A stretch of DNA of 64,000 bases from Azospirillum lipoferum 4B (GTDB taxonomy: Bacteria; Pseudomonadota; Alphaproteobacteria; Azospirillales; Azospirillaceae), in assembly GCF_000283655.1 (NCBI RefSeq), contig NC_016587.1, forward strand, positions 62,001-126,000. Reading direction: 5' to 3'. The notes below the pieces were generated by a model that was not told where the DNA came from, did no database searches, and saw only the letters and a program-made list of their open reading frames with translations. The position numbers and the translations under genes are program-made. Below, in pieces: positions 2,648-21,954 of the stretch (positions are counted from its first letter, which is position 1; each line of letters opens with the position of its first letter).

Positions 2648-3416
2648 TGTCCAGCACGTCGAACACGACTCCTTCCCCAGCCTGGACGAGCCCTATCTCG
2701 ATGCGCCCGACCTTGCGAAGCTGACGCCCACCCAGCTTTCGACCCACCCGCCGCGCATCCTGCTGCTCTACGGTTCGCTGCGGGAACGCTCCTACAGCCG
2801 CTTCCTGGCCGAAGAAGCCGCCCGGCTGCTCCGCCGCATGGGGGCCGAGACGCGCATCTTCGATCCCGCCGGCCTGCCGCTGCCCGACAGCGTGCCGGCC
2901 GACCATCCCAAGGTGGCGGAGCTGCGCGCCCTGTCGCAATGGTCGGAAGGCCAGGTGTGGGTCAGCCCGGAACGGCACGGCACGCTCACCGGCATCCTGA
3001 AATGCCAGATCGACTGGCTGCCGCTGGAAAGCGGCGCCATCCGGCCGACGCAGGGGCGGACGCTGGCGGTGATGCAGGTGTCCGGCGGCTCGCAATCCTT
3101 CAACGCCGTCAACGCCATGCGGGTGCTGGGGCGCTGGATGCGGATGGTGACCATCCCCAACCAGTCCTCCGTCGCCAAGGCCTATCAGGAGTTCGACGAG
3201 GCCGGGCGGATGAAGCCGTCGCCCTATTACGACCGCGTGGTGGACGTGATGGAGGAGCTGGTCAAGTTCACCCTGCTGGTGCGCGACCGCAGCGACTATC
3301 TGACCGACCGCTACAGCGAACGCCGCGAGGCCGGGCTGAAGGCCGAAACCGAGGCGCAGGCCCTCGCCGCCGCCGCCATGAGCGGGGAGAAGGCCGGCGG
3401 AGGCAAGCCCGACTGA
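2640..3416 (+). CDS. arsH: ArsH NADPH-dependent FMN reductase (organoarsenical oxidase)
   Basis: This 258-residue flavodoxin-fold protein is the ArsH component of ars operons. It is known in other bacteria as an NADPH-FMN oxidoreductase able to oxidise trivalent organoarsenicals. The flavin-binding stretch is [20 protein letters not shown] near residue 40, and [20 protein letters not shown] is the second family signature. The start overlaps acr3 by 8 bp, which indicates translational coupling. The C-terminus is Ala-rich, ending shortly before a stem-loop at 3432 that probably closes the operon. Confidence 0.95.
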
Positions 3417-3431
3417 TCCAATGCAGCAGGC

Positions 3432-3452
3432 GTCCCGGCCCGCCGCCGGGAC
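3432..3452 (+). terminator. Possible terminator of the ars operon
   Basis: A perfect 8-bp GC stem (GTCCCGGC / GCCGGGAC) with a CCGCC loop lies 16 bp after the arsH stop. No clear T-run follows, so it may be a transcript-end stabiliser or a weak terminator rather than a strong intrinsic one. Confidence 0.45.
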
Positions 3453-3554
3453 CCTTGCCGCATTCCTGCACAACGGTTGCGCAAAGTTTCGGGTCGATCC
3501 GCAAGGCCGCTCAGGTCCACATGGTGACAAACAATCCCATGGGAGGACAATAGG

Positions 3555-5054
<1,500 letters not shown>

Positions 5055-6651: not shown

Positions 6652-7542
6652 ATGGCGGTGATCGGTTTCATCGGATTGGGCAACATGGGCGGCCCGATGG
6701 CCGCGAACCTCGTGAAGGCGGGGCATCAGGTGGTGGGTTACGACCTCTCCCCCGCCGCCATCGACGCCGCCAAGGCGGCCGGCGTCACCATCGGCGAGTC
6801 CCCTGCGGCAATTGCCGCGGCGGCGGAGGTGGTCGTCACCATGCTGCCGGGCGGCCGCCACGTTCTGGGCGTCTATGACGGCGACACCGGCATCGTCGCG
6901 GTCGCCCGCCCCGGCACGCTGCTGATCGACTGCTCCACCATCGACGTGGACTCCGCCCGCAAGGCGCATGCGCTTGCCGCCGCCAACGGCGCCGCTTCGC
7001 TCGACGCGCCGGTGTCGGGCGGCGTCGGCGGGGCTGCGGCCGGCACGCTGACCTTCATGGCCGGCGGCGAGGCGGACGCCTTCGAGCGCGCCCGCCCGAT
7101 CCTGGAGGCGATGGGCAAGAAGATCGTCCATTGCGGCGGCGCCGGTGCCGGTCAGGCGGCGAAGATCTGCAACAACATGATCCTCGGCATCTCGATGATC
7201 GGCGTCTGCGAGGCCTTCGTTCTGGCGGAAAAGCTGGGCCTGTCGCATCAGGCGCTGTTCGACGTGTCGTCCACCTCGTCGGGCCAGTGCTGGTCGCTGA
7301 CCAGCTATTGCCCGGTCCCCGGCCCGGTGCCGGCCAGCCCGGCCAACCGCGATTACCAGCCCGGTTTCGCGGCGGCGCTGATGCTGAAGGACCTGAAGCT
7401 GGCCCAGGAAGCGGCGCAGAGCGCCGGCGCCCCCACCCCGCTGGGGGCCGCGGCGGCGCAGCTCTACGCGCTGATGAACGCGCAAGGCGAGGGCGGCACC
7501 GACTTCTCCGGCATCATCCGCATGCTGCGCGGCGAAGGCTGA
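6652..7542 (+). CDS. mmsB: 3-hydroxyisobutyrate dehydrogenase
   Basis: This 296-residue beta-hydroxyacid dehydrogenase oxidises 3-hydroxyisobutyrate to methylmalonate semialdehyde, the substrate of MmsA encoded upstream. The N-terminal Rossmann motif is GFIGLGNMGGPMAANL. The substrate motif DAPVSGGVGGAAAGTL sits mid-protein, and the catalytic lysine lies in GAGQAAKICNNMILG. The ribosome site GGGAGA lies just downstream of the repeat element. The stop codon overlaps the first bases of a strong hairpin. Confidence 0.94.
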   Translation: MAVIGFIGLGNMGGPMAANLVKAGHQVVGYDLSPAAIDAAKAAGVTIGESPAAIAAAAEVVVTMLPGGRHVLGVYDGDTGIVAVARPGTLLIDCSTIDVDSARKAHALAAANGAASLDAPVSGGVGGAAAGTLTFMAGGEADAFERARPILEAMGKKIVHCGGAGAGQAAKICNNMILGISMIGVCEAFVLAEKLGLSHQALFDVSSTSSGQCWSLTSYCPVPGPVPASPANRDYQPGFAAALMLKDLKLAQEAAQSAGAPTPLGAAAAQLYALMNAQGEGGTDFSGIIRMLRGEG

Positions 7543-7587
7543 GCTACAGCGTCGTGCGTTTAATATGAAACGCACGACGCTGTAGCT
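7542..7587 (+). terminator. Perfect 20-bp hairpin after mmsB
   Basis: Arms at 7542-7561 and 7568-7587 are perfectly complementary over 20 bp around the loop AATATG, and TTTA follows. It begins on the last base of the mmsB stop and lies between convergent mmsB and the lysR gene, so it could act as a bidirectional terminator. A perfect stem this long is unusual for a simple terminator and may be a small palindromic repeat element. Confidence 0.65.
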
Positions 7588-7644
7588 TTATGTTTGGCGA
7601 TCGGATTCACGCTCCAAATCGATTCCGATTTTACGCGATCCGAT

Positions 7645-8550
7645 CTATGCGGCCGGCGGGGGCAGGAACAGCGCCTGCTCCCGCCGGACCAGATCGGCGA
7701 TGTAGTCGGCGGTCATGGATATCCGCGCCAGCGACCGCAGATCCTCGTGCACGATCAGCCAGAAGGACCGGGTGATCGTCAGTTCCTCCGGCAGGACCGG
7801 CACCAGATCGGGCTCACCGCCGGCGATGAAGGCCGGCAGCATGCACAGGCCGGCGCCCGCCTGCGTCGCCTTCAACTGGGCGACGAGGCTGCTGCTCTTG
7901 ATCCGCGGCACCACCTCCCCGATGGTCTCGACATAGTCCAGTTCGGGGGCGAAGATCAGGTCGTCGATATAGCCGATGAAGGACTGGCCGCGCAGGTCGG
8001 CGCGGCTGCGGATCGCTGGCCGGCTGTCCAGATAGGCCGCGGTGCCGTACAGCCCCAGCCGGTAATCGGTCAGTTTCCGCGCATAGAGCCGCCCTTCCTG
8101 CGGGCGCGACAGGCTGATGGCGATGTCGGCCTCGCGCTTCGACAGGCTGAAGACGCGCGGCATGGCGACCAGCTGCACCTCCAGCTCCGGATGCCGTTCG
8201 CACAAGGCACCGATGCGCGGCGCCAGGAAACAGCTGCCGAAGCCGTCGGGCGCCCCGATGCGCACCGCGCCGGCAAGCGCCAGATCGCCATCCGCCACCA
8301 TGCCCTGGGCGAGGAAGGCGGCACTCTCCATCACCTCGGCGGTCTGCTTCAGCCGCTCGCCCTGCGGCGTCAGCGTGAATCCGCTGGGCCGCCGTTCGAA
8401 CAGGGTGACGCGCAGCGCATCCTCCAGCGCCGAGATGCGGCGGCTGACCGTGGTGTGGTCGGCCCGCAGGCGCTGGGCCGCCGTGGTCAGTGTGCCGGCG
8501 CGGGCCACCGCCAGGAAGAATCGCAGGTCGTTCCAGTTGAAATCGGCCAT
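7645..8550 (-). CDS. LysR-family transcriptional regulator
   Basis: This 301-residue protein has the LysR winged helix at residues 1-60 (DLRFFLAVARAGTLTTAAQ, then HTTVSRRISALEDAL) and a periplasmic-binding-fold effector domain after it. The ATG at 8550 is chosen because homology begins at WNDLRFFL; the frame continues upstream without conserved sequence. The DHTTVSRRI helix is seen in a subfamily that often regulates dehydrogenase or glutathione-related genes. It is convergent with mmsB, so control of the valine genes is possible but not shown. The target cannot be named from sequence. Confidence 0.9.
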   Translation of the reverse strand: MADFNWNDLRFFLAVARAGTLTTAAQRLRADHTTVSRRISALEDALRVTLFERRPSGFTLTPQGERLKQTAEVMESAAFLAQGMVADGDLALAGAVRIGAPDGFGSCFLAPRIGALCERHPELEVQLVAMPRVFSLSKREADIAISLSRPQEGRLYARKLTDYRLGLYGTAAYLDSRPAIRSRADLRGQSFIGYIDDLIFAPELDYVETIGEVVPRIKSSSLVAQLKATQAGAGLCMLPAFIAGGEPDLVPVLPEELTITRSFWLIVHEDLRSLARISMTADYIADLVRREQALFLPPPAA

Positions 8551-8815
8551 GTCCGCCGGCGCCGCCGTCCGTTCTCTCTGGTGACTCAGGGGCCGAACTG
8601 TCCCATCAACCCGCCCCCCTGACAAGAGCGCCAACCCGCCCCTGCGACAACGCCGCACCCGGCGCGATTGGGCACACCGAAAGAGCCTGCCCCGAAGGAT
8701 TACCGCATCTTCCGGCTAACGCTCCGATTTCGCGTGGACGAAGCGCCCGCCTGCCGCGTTTATCTGTTGGGGAACGCGGCGTTCCTGACCACTGCAAAGA
8801 CCGAAAGGACGGGCG

Positions 8816-9343
8816 ATGCCGGGCGAGGGCCGGACGAAAAACTGGAGCGGATCGGCCATTGCAAGGACCGTGGCGGCGGCGCTCGCCGTCCTTGTCGCGG
8901 CTGCGGCGCTGCCGGCCGCCGCCGAACCGGTGGCGGTTCAAGCGCCGGCAAAACCCCGGACCGACGCCTTCGATTGCTGGCTTCTCGACCCGGACCGGCT
9001 GGAGCAGGCGGCCGACCAGGGCCTGTGCGGCGATGCCTTCGCCCGCGCGCCGGACATCGCCTCCCTGCCCGACGCCCCTCCCCTGCCCGCCCTGACGCCG
9101 CCGCGCAAGCCGAAGATTCCGGAACGGCGCAGCCGCACATCCAGCCGCAATTCCAGCCACAGCGAAAGCCACGCGATGGGCACGTCGGCCGCGCGGGTTT
9201 CCCGCACCGGCGGCGGTGGCGGCGATTTCTTCAGCAACTTCCAGCGCGATTTCCGCGCGCTGACCGACCTGCTGGGCAGCGGAACGTCACCGCGCCGGGG
9301 CGACGGCAGCGGCCCCGGCTCCCATACCTCGCACCGGAACTGA
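8816..9343 (+). CDS. Hypothetical exported or membrane-anchored protein
   Basis: I do not recognise a family. The 175-residue product has a short basic N-terminus, a hydrophobic Ala/Val-rich segment at about residues 14-37 that looks like a signal peptide ending in AAAEP, two cysteines (in DAFDCWLLD and GLCGDAF), and a proline-rich then Ser/Arg-rich tail. A Gly5 run precedes DFFSNFQRDFRALTDLLGSG near the end. A GAAAGGACG ribosome site precedes the ATG. It converges with the gene for the ParA partner, with only 7 bp between them. Coding bias matches neighbouring genes. Confidence 0.6.
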   Translation: MPGEGRTKNWSGSAIARTVAAALAVLVAAAALPAAAEPVAVQAPAKPRTDAFDCWLLDPDRLEQAADQGLCGDAFARAPDIASLPDAPPLPALTPPRKPKIPERRSRTSSRNSSHSESHAMGTSAARVSRTGGGGGDFFSNFQRDFRALTDLLGSGTSPRRGDGSGPGSHTSHRN

Positions 9344-10102: not shown

Positions 10103-10855
10103 TCAGATCCCCAGCTCGTGCCGGATGAAGTACCAGGCGCCCAGGCATTCGTCGGCGCCGTTCACCGCGCCCACATCGACGATGGAACAGCCGATGTCGT
10201 CGACCCGGTGCATGTCCTCGATGTCCGGCACCTCGTGCGGCACCAGCCGGCCGACCCGGCCCAGCTCCAGCTTCGCTTCGCGCAGGCTGACCGAGCGGCG
10301 CTTGACCCGGTTCAGCAGGAAGGCGGCGGGGCGGCCGTAATCGCGCAGGAACTCCATCCAGGGGATGACGCTCATCTTGTCGAAACGCCCGACACCGGTC
10401 GGCACCAGCACGAGGTCGGCGCGGCGCAGCAGGATCTTGGTCGCTTCGGGATAGAGTTCCACCGACGGCGGCGTGTCGATGAAGACCACGTCGTAGCGGG
10501 TAGGATCGATCTGGGCGAGCGCCGAGTCGATCTCCTCCAGCGTGCCTTCGTAATGGTCGATGGCGGCGACGTCGTGCGGACGGCGCAGTTCGTGCCATTG
10601 GCCCAGCGTGCGCTGCGGATCGAAATCCAGCGTCGCGACGCGCATGCCGTCCTTGGCCGCCGCGACCGCGGTGTTCTTGCAGCTTGTGGTCTTTCCGGTG
10701 CCGCCCTTCGGCGCGCTGTAGACAACCCAGCGGGCGGGCTTCTGCGCGGGTCTCTGTACCGGATCGCCGGCGCTTTGGCCCGCTTGCCTGCCGGACGGTT
10801 TACCTGCCGATTTGCCTGCAGATTTCCGTGTGGCGACGGCGGTCGGATCGGCCAT
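10103..10855 (-). CDS. parA: ParA-family partition ATPase
   Basis: This protein of about 250 residues is a deviant-Walker ATPase. Walker A is KGGTGKTT at residues 50-57, with the signature lysine at its start. The A' motif is VVFIDTPPS, and the C-terminal part is of the MinD/ParA type (DLVLVPTGVGRFD). Residues 1-42 are a Lys/Gly/Gln-rich extension with no DNA-binding HTH, so it is closer to short plasmid ParA proteins. The ATG at 10855 is preferred because AGGGGGA precedes it closely; an in-frame ATG at 10870 is possible. It is expected to move plasmid DNA together with the downstream DUF3102-like partner, acting at palindromic sites upstream. Confidence 0.9.
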   Translation of the reverse strand: MADPTAVATRKSAGKSAGKPSGRQAGQSAGDPVQRPAQKPARWVVYSAPKGGTGKTTSCKNTAVAAAKDGMRVATLDFDPQRTLGQWHELRRPHDVAAIDHYEGTLEEIDSALAQIDPTRYDVVFIDTPPSVELYPEATKILLRRADLVLVPTGVGRFDKMSVIPWMEFLRDYGRPAAFLLNRVKRRSVSLREAKLELGRVGRLVPHEVPDIEDMHRVDDIGCSIVDVGAVNGADECLGAWYFIRHELGI

Positions 10856-11219
10856 CTGTTCCCCCTGCATCGCGTGCCCGTCTTCTGGATGGCCTTCTTA
10901 TTAGCGGATCGGCCGGCGGGTCGAAAGGGCAAAGGCGGCACCTGGACCATGGAAATAGGAGATCTCTGTACCGAAAAACCATTACCGGTAACGCTTTCCG
11001 TGCCAAAGCCGTTACCGGTAACGCTTCCGTCGCGACACACGGCCCCACCCGCGTTGCGGCAACGAAACATTCTGTCACCACTTTGTGCATTTCCGCATCG
11101 GTGCGGCGCCGCTAAAATGTTTCGCCTTCCACGAAACCTGACAGGGTATCGCCTTCCCGCACTCTTCAGGGCATGGGGCGGGGCATGGGGTGGGAAGCGG
11201 GCTGGGGAACGGATCGGTG
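10856..11219. other. Divergent control region between parA and the TPS-caspase gene
   Basis: These 364 bp hold no convincing gene. They contain the TTACCGGTAA pair and, further right, CGAAACATT at 11063-11071 with its inverted copy AATGTTTCG at 11116-11124. The last 60 bp before the TPS-caspase gene are G-rich. Confidence 0.6.
10982..11021. promoter_or_regulatory. Two TTACCGGTAA palindromes: candidate centromere or par operator
   Basis: Perfect palindromes TTACCGGTAA occur at 10982-10991 and 11012-11021, 30 bp apart centre to centre. Each is embedded in a longer direct repeat (CC/GT before, CGCTT(T)CCGT after). Their place 130-165 bp upstream of parA fits a parS-like centromere or autoregulatory operator. 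Confidence 0.6.
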
Positions 11220-14200
11220 ATGCGGGGTTCGGGTGTGAAGGACGGATCGTTGCGACAAGCTGTGGACAGCCGGAAGGGGCAGGTCGGGACCGGGTTCAGG
11301 CAAGCCCTTTGCCGCACCACCGCATTGGCGGGGACGGCCCGTCTGGCTCTCCTCGCCGCCGTGGCCGCCTTTGGCCTGTCCGCCCTGCCCGCCTTGGCCA
11401 ATCCCGAAGGCGGCGTGGTCACCGACGGCAGCGCCACCATCCAATCCACCGCCCCCGGCCGGCTCGACGTCATCCAATCCACCTCGAAGGCGGTGATCGA
11501 CTGGCAGCGCTTCGGCATCCGCGAGGGCGAGCACACCAACTTCCAGCAGCCCGACGCCAACTCCATCACGCTCAACCGCGTCACCGGCCCCGACCCCTCC
11601 GCCATCATGGGGCGGCTGACCGCCAACGGGCAGGTCTGGCTCGTCAACCCCAACGGCATCCTGTTCGGCCCGAATGCCCGCGTCGATGTCGGCGGGCTGC
11701 TCGCCACCACCCACGACATCCGCAACGAAGACTTCATGGCCGGCCGCCACAGCTTCGAGGGGCGGGCCGGCTCCACCGCCACGGTGGAGAATGAGGGCAC
11801 CATCACCGTCGCCCAGGCCGGGCTGGCGGCGCTGGTCGCCCCCGGCGTCGCCAACCGCGGCACCATCCAGGCCCGGCTGGGCGAAGTGACGCTGGCATCC
11901 GGCCGGCGCTTCGTCGTCGACCTGTTCGGCGACCAGAAGATCAACATTGCCCTCGACTCCCAATCCGACGCCAAAACCGACGCGCGGCCCGTCGGCGCCG
12001 ACGGCAAGCCGGTGGAGGCGCTAGTCAGCAACAGCGGCAAGATCTTCGCCGACGGCGGCCGGGTGCAGATGACCGCGTCGGCCGCCAAGGGGCTGGTCGA
12101 CCGCGTCGTCAACATGTCCGGCACCGTCCAGGCCCGGCGAGTGGAGCAGCAGGGCGGCGACATCGTCCTGCTCGGCGACGGCGGCGAGGTGGAGGTGTCG
12201 GGCACGCTGGATGCCGCCGGCCACGGCGCCGGCCAGATTGGCGGCTCCGTTACCGTGTCGGGCAATCGCGCGGTGCTGGCGGCCACGGCGCGCATCGACG
12301 CGTCGGGCGCCGCCGGGGGCGGCGAGGTGCTGGTCGGCGGCGACGTGCAGGGCGGCAGGGCGTCCGCCGCCACGCTCGCCGGCTACAATATCCGCCCGGC
12401 GCGCAAGCCGGTGCCGCCCTCCACCGAAACCGTGGTGGCGCAGGGGGCGACCATCGCCGCCGACGCCACCGGCAACGGCAAGGGCGGCAAGGTCGTGGTG
12501 TGGGCCGACGGAACCACCCGCTTCGACGGCACCATCTCCGCCCGCGGCGGGGCGAAGGGCGGGGAAGGCGGCTTCGTCGAGACGTCCGGCAAGCTGTCGC
12601 TGCAGGTGCGCGGCCGGGTCGACGCCGGAGCGACGGCAGGGAAGGGCGGGTCCTGGCTGCTCGACCCGACCGACATCACGGTGGCGTCGAGCGGCGGGAC
12701 CATCACCGCCGAAACCATCCAGACATCGCTGAATGCCGGAACCGACGTCACGCTGCAGACCGAAAGCACCGGCAGCGGGGGCGGCGACATCACCGTTTCC
12801 CAGGCCATCGCCAAATCGGCCGGCGGCACTGCGTCCCTGACGCTGAAGGCCCACCGCAACATCTTCGTCACCGAGAACATCACCTCCACCGCCGGCGCCC
12901 TGAACCTGACGCTGAATGCCGCGACCGGCACCGGGAACGGCGTGGTGCGGGTGACCGGGCAGGATCAGACGAAGACCGTCAGCATCGCGACCAACGGCGG
13001 CAGCTTCATCGTCGGCGGCGGTTCCGACCCGTCGACGAAGCCCGCTGTCGGCCTTTCCGGCGGCTACACCCCGGAGTTCGAGCGGATCGGCGTGAGGTTC
13101 CGCTATGCCACCGTCACCACCGGGGCCGGCTGGATCCTCGTCAACGGTGACGGCGGCGAAAACAACCGGGAAGGGAACCACGGCATCGCCCTCTACAACA
13201 GCCGGCTGGAAAGCACGGCCGGCTCGATCACGCTGAACGGCAAGGGCGGCAACGGCATCTATGCCGGCAACAACATTGGCGTCCTGCTGTCCGACTCCTC
13301 GCTGGTGACGTCCGGGGGCGCAATCGCCATCACCGGCACGGAAGGCGGCGGCGAAAGCTCCGTCGGCAGCAACGCCGTGCACATCGAAGGCACCTCCCGC
13401 GTCACCGTTCTGGGCAACGGGCCGATCAACATCGCGGGCGGGACGAATTCGGACGGGGACATCGTCCTGAGCGGTACGGAACTGTCCACCGATGCCGCCG
13501 CCATCACTGTGGAGTCGGGCGGAAAACTGCAGCTGAACCAAAGCGCAAGCCTGACGTCCGACGGCGTCGTGACCCTCACGTCGGCGCGCGGAATCCATCT
13601 GACCGACAGCACCATCGTGACCAGCGGTTCGCCCGTCACCATCAACAGCAACCGGTCCGGATCCTCCCGGGGCGCCATCCGGCTGATCTCGAGCCGCATC
13701 GCCACTTCGGGCGGCGCCATCACGCTGGGGGGCGGCACCGATCCTGTCCAAAATGCAGCCAAGGGCGATTCGGAAAGCCCCGCCGGCGTGACGGTCGCCG
13801 ACAGCACGGTCGATTCCAACGGCGGCAACATTTCCATCCGTGGCGAAGGTGCCGACTCCGCAGGCGAAGGGCATGGCGTGTCGATCATCGGCGCTTCGAC
13901 CATCGACTCCGGTGCGGGAACCATCGCCATCCGTGGCAAGGCGGTTTCCGTCAGCGGCTGGAATGCGGGCGTGTCGATCGCTCCCGACGGCAGCGGCCAG
14001 AGCGGTACGGTCATCCGGTCGACCTCAACCGCCGCCAATGCCATCACGATAGACGGCGACGCCAGCGAGGTCGATGCCGAGGAGGCCTGGGGTGTCGCAG
14101 TCAAGGGTTCGGTGGAAATCGCCTCGTCCGGCGGGATCGCCATCGCCGGCAAAGGCGGAGCATCGACCGCTCTGTACGAGGTTGCCGGGATCGGTCTGGT

Positions 14201-16529
14201 TGCGGGCACCGGCGAAACCATCCGCATCGCCGCCGGTGGCGGAGAGGTGACATTGCAGGGCACCGCCGGCACCGGCGAGATGGCATTGAACCTGTACGAA
14301 AGCGGCAGCGTGACGATCAGCAGCACGCCGGCCCCGCCACCACCACCACCACCACCACCACCACCACCTCCTCCTCCTCCTCCTCCTCCTCCTCCGCCGC
14401 CGCCGCCGCCGGTGACGCCGACCGTGCCGGAAGTCCCGACCACGCCGACAACCCCAACCACTCCGACCACGCCCGGAACCGACAGCGGAACGGACACGCC
14501 GTCCACCGGTACGGACACTTCAGGAACAGGCACGGGGGGAACGGGCACCGGAGGAACGGGAACGTCCGGGACCGATACGTCCGGCAGCGGGACCGGATCG
14601 ACGGGCACCGCCTCGTCGGGCGATTCGTCCTCCAGCAGCCAGTCCGCCGTGGCCGGCAACAGTTCCGTCCAGACGGTTCTGCAGACGGTGGCGCAGATCG
14701 CTGCGACTCCGACGGCCACGACGACCGCCACGACGACCGCCACGACGACCGCCACGACGACCTCTGCGACGACCGCGACCGTCGCCGGCACGACAGCCCC
14801 GACGACCGGCGCCACGGCCGGCGCAACCACGCCGCAGACCTTCCTGTCGTCGCTGGAACAGGCCCCAGCCACCCGGGACAGTGCCACCCAGGACACCGGC
14901 ACCCAAGGTGGAGAAGGGCAGGGCACCCAGGCGGCGGAAGGCGGATCGCCGTCCGGCACCGGCCCGACGTCCCCGCCGCCACCGCCACCGCCTCCACCCG
15001 GCCCGGCAACGGTGGTTCTGGCCTCGGGCCGGTCGGTTTCCTTCACGGCGGAAGCGACCCAGGCCTACGCCTCCGGCGCCACCCTGTCGCAGCCCGGTCC
15101 GCAGCTGCTCTCCTCGCCCCAGGTCCAGGCGGCGGCAGGCACCCTGATCCAGGCGGCCGGCAGCGGCGGCATCGTGCAGGCGGTGACGGATCTTTCGACC
15201 GGCAGCCTGTCGCTGCCGGAACAGCGCGCCGTGCTGGCCAGCGTTCCGGTCGCCACCCTGATCGGCGGCCTGACCTCCAGCAGCGATCCGGTGGCGGCGC
15301 GCGTCGGCGGCATCCTGCAGACCAGCGCGGCGGGCCAGCCGGGCGGCTATGCCCAGGTGCGCGCCGCGGTGACGCAGGCCAACCTGCCGCCGCAGGTCGC
15401 CCGCACCTACCTCGCCATGGTGCAGCGGGTGGAGCGCGAACAGCGCACCCAGGCCTTCTCCGGCGCGCTGCGCCAGCTGGTGGCGAACCCGGCGGCGGCG
15501 GACATGTTCGGCCGGCCGAACGCCTCCTCGGCACCGCCCAGCCTGCAACAGGCGCGCGGCGGCCGCACCCGCGGCGGCACCATGACCCTGCGCGGCGTCG
15601 TCGCCGACAGCGCCAATCTGGCCGAGGCGCGGGTGAACGGCCGCTGGGTCTTCATCGATGAACAGGGGCAGTTCCGCACCAGCATCCCGGTGGAGCCGGG
15701 GGCGACCGAAGCCACGCTGACCATGACCGACGAGACCGGCAAGACGACCGAGCAGCGCATCGCCATCGATGCCGCCGCCGCCGCCACGCCCGATCCGGCA
15801 GCCCCGCCGAAGCCGCGCAAGATCGCCCTGATGATCGCGGTCGACAGCTACCGCGACACCGGCATTCCCGCCCTGGCCACGCCGGACGCCGACATCAAGT
15901 CGGTGGGGCAGGCGCTGAACGACCATCTCGGCTTCGAAACGCGGGTGCTGCGCAACCCGACCAAGGCCCAGATCGGCGAGGCGTTGCGCAAGCTCGGCCG
16001 CGAGGTCGGCGAACAGGATCAGGTGATGGTCTATTACGCCGGCCACGGCTATGAACTGGCGGAAACCGGTGCCGGCTATTGGCTGCCGGCCGATGCGGAG
16101 ACGACCAGCGCCCGCAACTGGGTGTCGAACAACGACATCGGCCGTTTCCTCAGCCGCATGCCGGCCAAGCATGTGATGCTGGTGTCGGACAGCTGCTATT
16201 CCGGCGCCTTCACCAAGGAACAGAAGGTCGATGCCAGCCGCATCGCCAACGAGCAGGAGATCCGCCAGCGCCGCTCGGTGATGGCGCTGTCGTCGGGCGG
16301 CGACGAGCCGGTGGCCGACGGCGAGGTGAACTCCCCCTTCGCCACCGCGCTGAAGAAGCGGGTGCTGGCGCTGCCGAAGGACAGCAACGGCTTCGCGCTG
16401 TACCAGCAGGTCCGCCAGGACGTGACCAGCGAGGCGCCGCAGACCCCGCAATACGGCGTGATCCGCACCGCCGGCTACGACGAAGGCGGCGACTTCCTGC
16501 TGGACCTGCCCGATAGAGCGATGAACTGA
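11220..16529 (+). CDS. Two-partner-secretion (filamentous haemagglutinin N-terminal) protein with C-terminal caspase-like domain
   Basis: This 1769-residue protein combines domains rarely seen together. Residues 1-52 form a long signal peptide ending ALPALA. Residues about 55-170 are a TPS secretion domain with WLVNPNGILFG (Asn143-Pro-Asn-Gly). A long beta-helix-like repeat region follows to about 1030. A polyproline run sits at about 1040-1064, then Thr/Ser/Gly-rich and Pro-rich linkers. A small beta domain precedes a caspase/metacaspase-like domain from Lys1534 (KIALMIAVDSY). Its catalytic dyad is His1609 in YYAGHGYE and Cys1659 in SDSCYSGAF. An in-frame GTG at 11190 is an alternative start. 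No TpsB outer-membrane partner gene is nearby. The product is probably exported to the surface; proteolytic activity is inferred. Confidence 0.88.
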   Translation: MRGSGVKDGSLRQAVDSRKGQVGTGFRQALCRTTALAGTARLALLAAVAAFGLSALPALANPEGGVVTDGSATIQSTAPGRLDVIQSTSKAVIDWQRFGIREGEHTNFQQPDANSITLNRVTGPDPSAIMGRLTANGQVWLVNPNGILFGPNARVDVGGLLATTHDIRNEDFMAGRHSFEGRAGSTATVENEGTITVAQAGLAALVAPGVANRGTIQARLGEVTLASGRRFVVDLFGDQKINIALDSQSDAKTDARPVGADGKPVEALVSNSGKIFADGGRVQMTASAAKGLVDRVVNMSGTVQARRVEQQGGDIVLLGDGGEVEVSGTLDAAGHGAGQIGGSVTVSGNRAVLAATARIDASGAAGGGEVLVGGDVQGGRASAATLAGYNIRPARKPVPPSTETVVAQGATIAADATGNGKGGKVVVWADGTTRFDGTISARGGAKGGEGGFVETSGKLSLQVRGRVDAGATAGKGGSWLLDPTDITVASSGGTITAETIQTSLNAGTDVTLQTESTGSGGGDITVSQAIAKSAGGTASLTLKAHRNIFVTENITSTAGALNLTLNAATGTGNGVVRVTGQDQTKTVSIATNGGSFIVGGGSDPSTKPAVGLSGGYTPEFERIGVRFRYATVTTGAGWILVNGDGGENNREGNHGIALYNSRLESTAGSITLNGKGGNGIYAGNNIGVLLSDSSLVTSGGAIAITGTEGGGESSVGSNAVHIEGTSRVTVLGNGPINIAGGTNSDGDIVLSGTELSTDAAAITVESGGKLQLNQSASLTSDGVVTLTSARGIHLTDSTIVTSGSPVTINSNRSGSSRGAIRLISSRIATSGGAITLGGGTDPVQNAAKGDSESPAGVTVADSTVDSNGGNISIRGEGADSAGEGHGVSIIGASTIDSGAGTIAIRGKAVSVSGWNAGVSIAPDGSGQSGTVIRSTSTAANAITIDGDASEVDAEEAWGVAVKGSVEIASSGGIAIAGKGGASTALYEVAGIGLVAGTGETIRIAAGGGEVTLQGTAGTGEMALNLYESGSVTISSTPAPPPPPPPPPPPPPPPPPPPPPPPPPPVTPTVPEVPTTPTTPTTPTTPGTDSGTDTPSTGTDTSGTGTGGTGTGGTGTSGTDTSGSGTGSTGTASSGDSSSSSQSAVAGNSSVQTVLQTVAQIAATPTATTTATTTATTTATTTSATTATVAGTTAPTTGATAGATTPQTFLSSLEQAPATRDSATQDTGTQGGEGQGTQAAEGGSPSGTGPTSPPPPPPPPPGPATVVLASGRSVSFTAEATQAYASGATLSQPGPQLLSSPQVQAAAGTLIQAAGSGGIVQAVTDLSTGSLSLPEQRAVLASVPVATLIGGLTSSSDPVAARVGGILQTSAAGQPGGYAQVRAAVTQANLPPQVARTYLAMVQRVEREQRTQAFSGALRQLVANPAAADMFGRPNASSAPPSLQQARGGRTRGGTMTLRGVVADSANLAEARVNGRWVFIDEQGQFRTSIPVEPGATEATLTMTDETGKTTEQRIAIDAAAAATPDPAAPPKPRKIALMIAVDSYRDTGIPALATPDADIKSVGQALNDHLGFETRVLRNPTKAQIGEALRKLGREVGEQDQVMVYYAGHGYELAETGAGYWLPADAETTSARNWVSNNDIGRFLSRMPAKHVMLVSDSCYSGAFTKEQKVDASRIANEQEIRQRRSVMALSSGGDEPVADGEVNSPFATALKKRVLALPKDSNGFALYQQVRQDVTSEAPQTPQYGVIRTAGYDEGGDFLLDLPDRAMN
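14336..14762 (+). repeat. Low-complexity tracts inside the TPS-caspase gene
   Basis: CCA/CCT/CCG triplet runs (about 14336-14411) encode a polyproline stretch of more than 20 residues. A 12-bp unit GCCACGACGACC is repeated in tandem at 14715-14762 (four copies, the last slightly changed) and encodes Thr/Ala repeats. Such tracts are prone to in-frame length change, so the linker may vary between strains. Confidence 0.8.
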
Positions 16530-18743: not shown

Positions 18744-18807
18744 GCCGCGCGGTGCCCATGCCGGGCTCCGCAGGAACGGACGACGGTCGCGACGCTGAAG
18801 GCCTTTG

Positions 18808-21800
18808 ATGGACCGCAATATATTTCAATTCATTTGGAAGCACAGCGGCCGGCAGCAGATCCTGCTCGCCCTGTTGACCATCGCGTCCTTCCCGGTGCTC
18901 TACGCATCGCTGGAACTGCCGAAGATCATCATCAACCGGGCGCTGTCCGATCCCCAGCCGGTGCGCGAGATCCTGGGCGTCGCCATGGGTCCGGTGACCT
19001 ATCTGCTGGTGCTGTGCTTCACCTTCCTGGCGCTGGTGCTCGCCAACGGCGCCTTCAAGATGCGCATCAACACCTTCAAGGGGGTGGTCGGCGAACGGCA
19101 GGTGCGGCGCCTGCGCTTCATGCTGCTCGACCGCATGCTGCGCTTCCCGCTGCCGCATTTCTCCAAGGTCAGCCAGGGAGAGCTGATCTCCACCGTCACG
19201 TCGGAAACCGAACCGCTGGCCGGCTTCATCGGCGATTCCTTCGCCCAGCCGCTCTACCAGGGCGGCACGATGCTGACGATCCTGCTGTTCCTGTTCATCC
19301 AGCAGCCGACCATCGGGCTGGTGTCCATCGCGCTGATCCCGGTGCAGGCCTACATCATCCCCAAATTGCAGATCAAGGTGAAGATGCTGGGGAAGGAGCG
19401 GGTGCGCAAGGTCCGGCAACTGTCCGAGCGCATCGGCGAAAGCGTGGAGAATGTCCGCGAGATCCGCGTCAACGGCACGATCCGCTACGTCCTGGCCCAA
19501 TTCTCGCAGTATCTCGGCAGCATCTACTGGATCAGGCTGGAGATCTACAAGCGCAAGTATTTCGTCAAGTTCCTGAACAACTTCATCAACCAGATCACGC
19601 CCTTCTTCCTGTTCTCCATCGGCGGGTATCTGGTCCTGCAGGGCGACCTGACCATCGGCGCGCTGGTGGCGGCGCTGTCGGCCTTCAAGGACCTGACCGC
19701 CCCCTGGAAGGAGCTGCTCGACTATTACCAGAACATGATCGACGCCCAGATCAAGTACGAGCAGATCGCCGACCAGTTCTCCCCGCCCTTCCTGTTCGAA
19801 TGGGCCCCGTCGACGCCCGCCACGCCCACCGACCTGAAGGCCCCGATACGGCTGGAGGCGGTGACCTGGGCCAACGAATACGGCGACCGCATGCTGCAGC
19901 GGCTGTCGCTGGAGGTGCCGCCGGGCGCGCTGGTCGGCATCGCCGGCACCAACGCGCTGGCGCTGCGCCGTCTGGCCGAGGTGCTGGTGCGGCTGTCGCC
20001 GCCGACCTCCGGCCGGATCGCCATCGGCAACCAGACGCTGGACCAGCTGCCGCTCGACCTGCTGGGGCGCCGCATGGCCTATGCCAGCCCGGAACCGCGC
20101 ATGTTCACCGGCAGCATGATGCAGAACATCACCTATGGGCTGCGCCACCGCCCGCCACCCGACGATCCGGAAACCATGAGCCCCGCCCGTCGGCGCGAGA
20201 TCGTGGAGGCCGAGGCGTCCGGCAACTCCGCCGACAGCATGGAAGGCATCTGGACCGACTTCGCCATGATCGGCGCGACCGACTGGAACAGCCTGCGGCC
20301 CTGGTTCATGCAGTGTCTGGCGGCCACCGGCGGCGAGAACGCCGTCTACCAGCGCGGCCTGCGCGAGGTGTTCGACCCCGACGACTATCCCTTCGTCGCC
20401 GAGCCGCTGCTGCGCGTCCGCCACTGGCTGCGCGACGCCATTACCGAACGCGGCATGGACACGCTGCTGGCCCGCTTCGAGCGCGACCGCTTCAACCCCT
20501 ATGGCAGCCTTGCCGAGAACCTGCTGTTCGGCCTGCCGGACGGCAAGCGGCTGACCGTCGCCCGCATGGTCTGCGATCCCACCATCCGCGCCCTGATGGA
20601 GACACATGGGCTGTGGGACTCCGCCGTGCGCATCGGCCGCCGCTTCGCCATGCGGGTGGTCGGCGTCTATCGCGACAGCGCCGACGGCGACGTCATGATC
20701 ATGCGCTACCCGCACATCGACGACGCCCTGTTCGAGGAGCTGGTGGAGGCGGTCACCCGCCTGAAGCGCCGGTCCGAGCGGCCCCAGCGCCGCCACCAGG
20801 AGGCGGACACGCTGCTGTTCGCCACCATGTTCCTGATGATCGTGCCCAAGCGCGACGGCATGGACTTCGCCCCGCCGCCGGAACGCGAGGCGATCATGGC
20901 GATCCGCCGCCGCCTGCTGGACGACATGCCGCAGGAGCTGCGCGACAAGGTCGCCGTCTTCGACCCGGAACTCTATCACCCGCGCCTGAACGTGATGGAC
21001 AACCTGCTGTTCGGCCGCATCACCACGGAGGATCCCCGCGCGATCACCCAGCTGCGCGCCCTGGTGGATGAGGCGCTGGAGCGGAACGACGCACGGGCCT
21101 TCGTGCTGATCCTGGTGGTTCTGGGCGAGGTCGGCATCGGCGGTTCGCTGCTGCCGATCAGCGTGCGGCAGCGCATCCAGCTGACGCGGGGGCTGATGAA
21201 GAAGCCCGACATCTTCGTGATCTATCAGGCGCTGAACAGCTACGACCCGGACGAACGGATGCGCATCTTCCTGCGCATGAAGGAGCTGCTGCCGGAAATG
21301 ACGCTGATCGTGCTGGAGGAGCGGATCGCCGACAACCCGGCCTTCGACGCGCTCTACGACCTGGAGGACGGCCGGCTGGTCCGGCGCGGCCAGAACGGCG
21401 GCGACCAGCAGGAGGACACGATGCCCGGCGACGGGGAGGGCACCGACGAGCCCGCCCTGCGGCTGCTCTCGCGCTCTCCCGTCTTTTCCGACCTGCCGGA
21501 AACGGTGCTGCGCAGGATGCTCACGGTGTCGGAGTGGCGGACGGTGTCGGCCGGCGACTTCATCTTCCGCAGCGGCGAGCCGTCGGAGTTCGTCTTCGTC
21601 CTGGCGGAGGGCGAGGCGGAGATGGTGCGGCTGATGCCCGACAACCAGCCGCCGCTGCACATCGCCTACATCAAACCGCCGGAGGTGATGGGTGAGGTGG
21701 AGCTTCTGGCCGGCGTCCGCCGCTTCTCCACCATCCGGGCGCGCACCGACCTGCGTCTGCTGCGGCTGGACGGTGCGGCGATGCTGCGGCTTCTGCCGTC

Positions 21801-21954
21801 GGTGCCGGACCTGCCGATGCGGGTGATCCAGCAGATCGGCAAGCGCCTGACCAGCGAGGGACCGGCCGGTTCGGTGCCCTCGGATGCTCAAGTCCCTCTC
21901 CCGCCCCGGGAGAGGGAAGGGACCCATGCGGAGCATGGGAAGGGTGAGGGGTGA
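18808..21954 (+). CDS. ABC-exporter-like membrane protein with degenerate nucleotide-binding domain and cyclic-nucleotide-binding domain
   Basis: This 1048-residue protein begins with an ABC exporter membrane domain (residues 1-320, six expected helices; EXPORTER-like GELISTVTSETEPLAGF and SVENVREIRVNG). The region after it follows the ABC ATPase layout but the key motifs are changed: GIAGTNALALRRL stands where Walker A (GxxGxGKS/T) should be, LPISVRQRIQLTRGLMKKPD replaces the LSGGQ signature, and VIYQALNSYDPDER replaces Walker B/D-loop. Several hundred extra residues are inserted between. Residues about 890-1015 form a cNMP-binding beta-barrel (GEPSEFVFVLAEGEAEMV). The last 19 residues are encoded by a repeat element. 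The ATG at 18808 is preferred to an in-frame TTG. ATP-driven transport looks unlikely; the role is unknown. Confidence 0.8.
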   Translation: MDRNIFQFIWKHSGRQQILLALLTIASFPVLYASLELPKIIINRALSDPQPVREILGVAMGPVTYLLVLCFTFLALVLANGAFKMRINTFKGVVGERQVRRLRFMLLDRMLRFPLPHFSKVSQGELISTVTSETEPLAGFIGDSFAQPLYQGGTMLTILLFLFIQQPTIGLVSIALIPVQAYIIPKLQIKVKMLGKERVRKVRQLSERIGESVENVREIRVNGTIRYVLAQFSQYLGSIYWIRLEIYKRKYFVKFLNNFINQITPFFLFSIGGYLVLQGDLTIGALVAALSAFKDLTAPWKELLDYYQNMIDAQIKYEQIADQFSPPFLFEWAPSTPATPTDLKAPIRLEAVTWANEYGDRMLQRLSLEVPPGALVGIAGTNALALRRLAEVLVRLSPPTSGRIAIGNQTLDQLPLDLLGRRMAYASPEPRMFTGSMMQNITYGLRHRPPPDDPETMSPARRREIVEAEASGNSADSMEGIWTDFAMIGATDWNSLRPWFMQCLAATGGENAVYQRGLREVFDPDDYPFVAEPLLRVRHWLRDAITERGMDTLLARFERDRFNPYGSLAENLLFGLPDGKRLTVARMVCDPTIRALMETHGLWDSAVRIGRRFAMRVVGVYRDSADGDVMIMRYPHIDDALFEELVEAVTRLKRRSERPQRRHQEADTLLFATMFLMIVPKRDGMDFAPPPEREAIMAIRRRLLDDMPQELRDKVAVFDPELYHPRLNVMDNLLFGRITTEDPRAITQLRALVDEALERNDARAFVLILVVLGEVGIGGSLLPISVRQRIQLTRGLMKKPDIFVIYQALNSYDPDERMRIFLRMKELLPEMTLIVLEERIADNPAFDALYDLEDGRLVRRGQNGGDQQEDTMPGDGEGTDEPALRLLSRSPVFSDLPETVLRRMLTVSEWRTVSAGDFIFRSGEPSEFVFVLAEGEAEMVRLMPDNQPPLHIAYIKPPEVMGEVELLAGVRRFSTIRARTDLRLLRLDGAAMLRLLPSVPDLPMRVIQQIGKRLTSEGPAGSVPSDAQVPLPPREREGTHAEHGKGEG

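Follow-up and report, generated by a model that had tools for sequence, protein, structure and literature searches.

What is a caspase-like protease doing at the end of a protein that begins like a filamentous haemagglutinin? The question is raised by one gene in a 64,000-nucleotide stretch of Azospirillum lipoferum 4B (contig NC_016587.1, positions 62,001 to 126,000; this whole stretch is called the window here). A first-pass annotation, made from the letters alone, had read in a single frame a two-partner secretion (TPS) exoprotein and a caspase fold with an intact His1609/Cys1659 dyad, and this reading holds on Pfam matches, an alignment of 30 rows and one-frame orthologues. We propose, with moderate confidence in the explanation as a whole, that the gene encodes a type Vb (two-partner) exoprotein, a TpsA, with an exported paracaspase-like cysteine protease as its C-terminal cassette. 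Relatives are named below by handles for genomes (G) and loci (L).

Both ends of the fusion are assigned by independent matches. At the N-terminal end, the TPS domain also matches adhes_NPXG (TIGR01901, E 1.4e-23), its NPNG motif reads NPNGILFG in the translation, and the closest solved structure by sequence for residues 44–502 is EtpA (8vba, E 1.7e-74). The beta-helix body read by the first-pass annotation is thus backed by EtpA homology up to residue 502, where that homology stops; the remainder is probably beta-helix as well. At the C-terminal end, Peptidase_C14 (PF00656) matches residues 1533–1745 with E 3.1e-21, the solved structure closest to a profile of this part is the paracaspase MALT1 (3v4o, E 3.8e-12), and profile and fold matches to MALT1 place the domain in the caspase fold of family C14. 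Between hinge and caspase lie two parts that the first-pass annotation did not have, a helical domain called mid here and an immunoglobulin (Ig)-like domain; the latter matches Glucodextran_B (PF09136) at E 1.3e-6, a narrow pass with 28.7 bits against a cut-off of 27. All three Pfam families (PF05860, PF09136 and PF00656) exceed their curated cut-offs. The TPS, CASP, TPSB, mid and ig profiles used below were trained on sequences from this analysis, which makes their E-values dependent on it; no such circularity affects the Pfam and PDB matches.

His1609, Cys1659 and the acidic pocket residues are invariant in all 30 aligned rows, and the caspase domain is better conserved than the body in 9/9 comparisons (body dN/dS 0.45–0.91). 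Because D1558 and D1657, the counterparts of acidic Arg-pocket residues in MALT1, are among the invariant residues, cleavage after Arg is predicted.

Two genes joined by an assembly or annotation error, which the first-pass annotation had named as its own possible refutation, might be suspected from the GC-rich poly-proline stretch between the two parts, where assemblies can err. The closest relatives of the fusion come from Azospirillum, and G001 is the nearest genome among those compared. TPS and caspase domains share one open frame in all 10 complete Azospirillum loci (named records), and an eleventh locus ends at a contig edge. The other 11 of the 22 loci from the contig search are TPS proteins from other taxa without a caspase match in the same frame; 15 stretches of viral contigs matched a pattern, none of them related to the fusion. 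Among 82 genomes of the order, the Ig–caspase part was matched in 28 (E ≤ 1e-20): 22 of the 45 of G001's genus at no less than 64% identity, the decayed G036 at 50%, and five from other genera (G048, G050, G053, G056 and G057). Both domains stand in a single frame in 20 of those 22 genus genomes (16 by profiles; G022, G028, G032 and G035 by contig and frame-length match), and the frames of G023 and G033 end at a contig edge. Since the same one-frame architecture recurs in independent assemblies of Azospirillum and the genus, and at L214 without any run of five or more prolines, the artefact is excluded and the odds of a false join are negligible. The fusion is a real, conserved protein; the annotated plasmid records (3/3) label it merely "filamentous hemagglutinin N-terminal domain-containing protein".

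The first-pass annotation had also remarked that no secretion partner, TpsB, is next to the gene. None is found among the window's open reading frames of at least 120 amino acids (aa); in relatives, a TpsB does exist elsewhere, with conserved neighbours of its own. TpsB lies directly upstream of the fusion in G013, G016, G018 and G043, and at L013 and L014 (duplicated by L089 and L090) the open frame of the fusion starts at the TpsB stop codon. Around the corresponding TpsB of the window's clade, a search for TPS proteins came back empty (0 matches at E ≤ 0.01, 15 loci, flanks of 3.1–9.3 kb). In a tree of 70 TpsB rows, the five fusion-adjacent TpsBs and 17 such orphans (the 15 flank-searched loci plus L071 and L120) form one clade of 22 (support 100/99). 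Next to attach, at 100/100, are four rows from G048, G053 and G056 (two rows), which group only weakly among themselves (88/26); the caspase part is likewise present in these genomes.

A search with the orphan TpsB of G001 found 22 genus genomes at 60–100% identity, followed by a gap to at most 47%. Across the 45 genus genomes, 22 have both fusion and TpsB, one (G042) has the fusion only, none has TpsB only and 22 have neither; G031 was counted as having the fusion through an 88%-identical TPS part in a 681-aa frame. In G026, G032 and G035, the single TPS protein is the fusion and the single TpsB is the orphan, and in G001, with four TPS proteins and four TpsBs, the other three TpsBs are near another TpsA. 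G036, counted as having neither, keeps broken fusion remnants between parA and hmgA (L088, about 7344–9270) and most likely a TpsB remnant at G036:C1:1558966-1559356 (two pieces, 49 and 52% identity), so both partners seem to have decayed together in that genome. We conclude that in relatives of the window's clade a dedicated TpsB is encoded elsewhere in the genome, and we infer the same for the window strain.

These TpsBs have company. A small protein gene, g1, signal-bearing by eye and without a Pfam match, and a CHASE2-cyclase gene adjoin TpsB at 15/15 orphan loci, at L179 (G031) and in the operons of G013, G016, G018 and G043; at L120 (G004), which is cut, the cyclase alone stands beside it. 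Pfam confirmed CHASE2 (PF05226) and cyclase (PF00211) in L014, L076 and L214. Neither g1 nor the cyclase was found at the 12 loci of other TpsBs in the same genus (L077–L079, L097, L098, L103, L104, L108, L112, L114, L117 and L118). The g1–cyclase–TpsB trio thus keeps together, with the TpsA–caspase gene sited elsewhere. In G033 (L087) and at L214, g1 and the cyclase are downstream of the fusion. As the deep-branching members carry operons, we infer that relocation of the fusion gene, rather than a different ancestral order, explains the separation. At a further locus, L178 (G195), a cyclase-like stretch (about 3159–3854, 39–43% identity) adjoins a 965-aa caspase protein without a TPS match; caspase–cyclase linkage may be wider than the fusion family.

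Beyond the genus, mid travels with the caspase. Class-wide, the Ig–caspase part was found in 23 of 385 genomes and mid in three (G001, G013 and G084); in G084 (L172), haemagglutinin-type repeats (by eye), mid, Ig and caspase are present, and the contig ends before any TPS domain. Phylum-wide, 15 of 398 genomes have mid, and all 15 listed places outside G001 have a same-frame caspase with both catalytic motifs (H and C). One of them, L214, is a TPS–mid–Ig–caspase protein with TpsB directly upstream. Ten of the other 14 have an LExR-type start, and the three of these that were scanned (L206, L209 and L211) are DUF4347 plus caspase; L204, L205, L207 and L208 are without that start, the frame of L208 being just 594 aa. 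Two further DUF4347-caspases, L082 and L084, come from the order, with mid detected in L084 and not in L082. Since mid–caspase ends both TPS and DUF4347 proteins, the cassette is a unit that ends at least two kinds of giant protein. In place of TPS and beta-helix, the DUF4347-caspase giants (the five named and others) have DUF4347 and cadherin, lectin-like or propeller parts, and those among the 15 mid–caspase proteins have no Ig match before the caspase. In L082, L084, L206, L209–L213, L215 and L216, SHG and YGC[DS] motifs are kept in the DUF4347-type part (by eye), and in L082, L206, L210 and L216 the Cys count is two, one in YGC[DS] and one in the caspase; possibly, DUF4347 is another caspase-like His/Cys domain.

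These observations allow us to propose how the protein works. A dedicated TpsB, encoded apart beside g1 and the CHASE2-cyclase in relatives and presumably in the window strain, would carry the TPS domain across the outer membrane. The beta-helix would then hold the C-terminal cassette outward on the Pro/Thr stalk, where the protease would cut after Arg. Self-processing, either in the Arg-rich linker that precedes the Ig domain or at RQRR, may free or activate the mid–Ig–caspase end, which would act on surface proteins of its own cell or of neighbours. Judging from domains and linkage, the CHASE2-cyclase may translate envelope state into a cyclic-nucleotide signal. Because the protease stays constant and the filament varies, we favour a fixed job, such as self-release or surface-protein trimming, over a polymorphic weapon. 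Export of a caspase, which the first-pass annotation had thought unusual, is not odd in itself, because several single caspase proteins of the same class (L148, L149, L152, L153, L155, L156, L159 and L168) start with a signal-like hydrophobic stretch (by eye, unscored). More tentatively, and somewhat against our own expectation, the parts might form a four-part export-and-signal system of exported g1, CHASE2-cyclase sensor, TpsB pore and a filament whose Arg-specific, self-cleaving paracaspase tip reports or executes an outside event, the mid–paracaspase cassette having been attached to no fewer than two unrelated types of giant surface protein.

Several points weigh against the exported, self-processing protease. 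The structure comparison that the first-pass annotation had called for gave MALT1 fold matches but weak models: two AlphaFold models, built from 12 alignment rows, have mean pLDDT of 60.8 and 60.9, and their active-site loops are weak. In paracaspases and type I metacaspases, processing is reportedly neither required nor observed (PMC4357240), which counts against self-cleavage. The test for co-occurrence of fusion and TpsB (Fisher p 5.8e-12, or 1.3e-10 with G031 as a mismatch) ignores shared ancestry in both values. Last, G042 has an intact fusion (L011, L037) and no TpsB of the fusion-linked clade even at E 0.001; this 96% complete draft may have a gap there or be a genuine exception.

Alternatively, the caspase end might be retained in the periplasm, as happens to the C-terminal part of some large TpsAs, and serve there as a protease in processing or quality control of the exoprotein or envelope. 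TPS export proceeds N-terminus first, the linked CHASE2 domain belongs to a type that faces the periplasm, g1 looks exported (by eye) and the caspase domain is constant and conserved, all of which would fit; the long Pro/Thr stalk and the near-absence of Cys suit full export, and we consider a periplasmic end unlikely. A contact-dependent toxin like CdiA or the polymorphic toxins, with the caspase as effector against neighbours, is rather less probable. An enzyme is the last filament domain there too, and one survey counts caspase domains at the C-terminus among toxins (PMC3482391). A conserved end on a variable body is nevertheless the reverse of polymorphic toxins. No pretoxin family (PT-VENN, DUF637) is among the three Pfam families matched at E up to 1; in the 3 kb that follow each of 15 fusion loci, g1 is the one small gene that recurs across lineages, and that at L087 and L214 only; and the next gene in the window's clade is hmgA or another housekeeping-type neighbour. 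On these grounds the CdiA-type toxin was not taken as the leading explanation.

A non-catalytic caspase fold that serves an adhesin for binding or structure has precedent in inactive caspase-like versions (PMC6426788). It is hard to square with the dyad and pocket residues kept in 30/30 rows, the single Cys retained, and the H and C motifs kept in 15/15 mid–caspase proteins of other families, and we give it little credence.

The exported, paracaspase-tipped exoprotein that we favour resembles several known systems. With TpsA exoproteins such as EtpA and filamentous haemagglutinin it shares the TPS domain, NPNG motif, beta-helix start and, in relatives, a cognate TpsB; it differs in its C-terminal mid–Ig–caspase cassette, in the separation of fusion and TpsB genes in the window's clade, and in the g1 and CHASE2-cyclase genes adjoining TpsB. 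With MALT1 and metacaspases (C14B) it shares the caspase fold, His/Cys dyad, acidic pocket residues and a nearby Ig-like domain, whereas it is predicted to be exported on a bacterial filament and its Ig domain precedes, not follows, the protease. Tox-Caspase of polymorphic toxins likewise forms the C-terminus of large exported proteins; it is listed with T2SS, T6SS, T7SS and PVC, with TcdB/TcaC added in the text, and HINT is the sole protease named for T5SS toxins (PMC3482391). The fusion, in contrast, has a constant end, and the downstream stretches searched showed no immunity gene.

MARTX and large clostridial toxin protease domains are thought to cut their own giant protein. These C80 domains, like the fusion's, are clan CD proteases inside giant exported proteins and cut after Leu upon ligand binding (PMC4357240); the fusion belongs to another family with predicted Arg cleavage, and a C80-type domain was rejected, being absent from the Pfam matches at E up to 1. 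Of 671 sequences in a survey of prokaryotic caspases, 30 were placed as extracellular; the survey proposed surface or fratricidal roles and noted a metacaspase–CHASE2 protein in a cyanobacterium (PMC3501461). Term searches found neither haemagglutinin nor Azospirillum in PMC3501461, and no haemagglutinin in PMC6426788 and PMC8283722. No description of a TPS–caspase combination was found in the literature searched, most subscription papers lying outside its scope.

Features of the fusion gene in the window (residue numbers refer to the 1769-aa product)
Feature	Position	Strand	Basis
TpsA–caspase fusion gene, 1769 aa + stop	11220..16529	+	Open frame, Pfam, one-frame orthologues
Signal region, residues 1–60 (predicted)	11220..11399	+	Hydrophobic stretch ending ALA, then NPEGG; read from sequence
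TPS secretion domain, residues 61–330, with NPNG	11400..12209	+	PF05860 E 1.4e-35, EtpA match
Beta-helix type body, residues 331–1030, varies among relatives	12210..14309	+	EtpA match, dN/dS
Pro/Thr hinge, residues 1031–1264, 26-Pro run from residue 1039 (1039–1064)	14310..15011	+	Sequence
mid, helical domain without Pfam family, residues 1265–1441	15012..15542	+	Conservation; predicted helices, pLDDT mostly 75–91
Arg-rich linker R1446–R1451, putative site of self-cleavage	15555..15572	+	At least 2 Arg in 17/17 rows; cleavage predicted
Ig-like domain, residues 1450–1518	15567..15773	+	PF09136 Glucodextran_B
Caspase domain, residues 1533–1745	15816..16454	+	PF00656, MALT1 profile and fold matches
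Catalytic His1609	16044..16046	+	30/30 rows
Catalytic Cys1659	16194..16196	+	30/30 rows; sole Cys from TPS domain onward
RQRR, residues 1682–1685, before next strand, second candidate processing site	16263..16274	+	17/17 rows; strand placement from weak model

An alternative upstream GTG start in the open reading frame list would give a 1779-aa product. The NPxGG start of the putative mature protein is common to relatives, and the longest poly-proline run of the hinge ranges among close relatives from fewer than 5 residues (L092) to 40 (L011). The upstream region shared with parA, as the first-pass annotation described it, is there (parA at 10103–10870, minus strand, divergent from the fusion gene); it is the trait of one clade and absent in deep-branching members. 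Within the window's clade, parA and hmgA enclose the fusion at L005–L009, L011, L015, L080 and L095; L012, L093 and L094 have parA and no hmgA match in the stretch, and L010 has hmgA with the other side cut. A functional parA link was rejected, as L013, L014, L087 and L089–L092 are without any of five window neighbours. Between the divergent genes, two copies of the palindrome TTACCGGTAA (10981–10992 and 11011–11022), one a perfect 12-mer and one with an altered end base, form a possible operator or partition site. At 18805–21954, a 1049-aa ABC-transporter-like frame with an apparent C-terminal cyclic-nucleotide-binding domain (by eye) is kept downstream in relatives.

Bacterial caspase homologues have mostly been discussed under stress and cell death, with a surface or anti-neighbour role as a guess (PMC3501461). 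A conserved family that has an identifiable secretion partner, just one Cys and a cyclase linked to it would make that guess testable in a plant-associated genus. That TpsA and TpsB can lie apart and still co-occur is also a caution for scans that label such proteins orphans.
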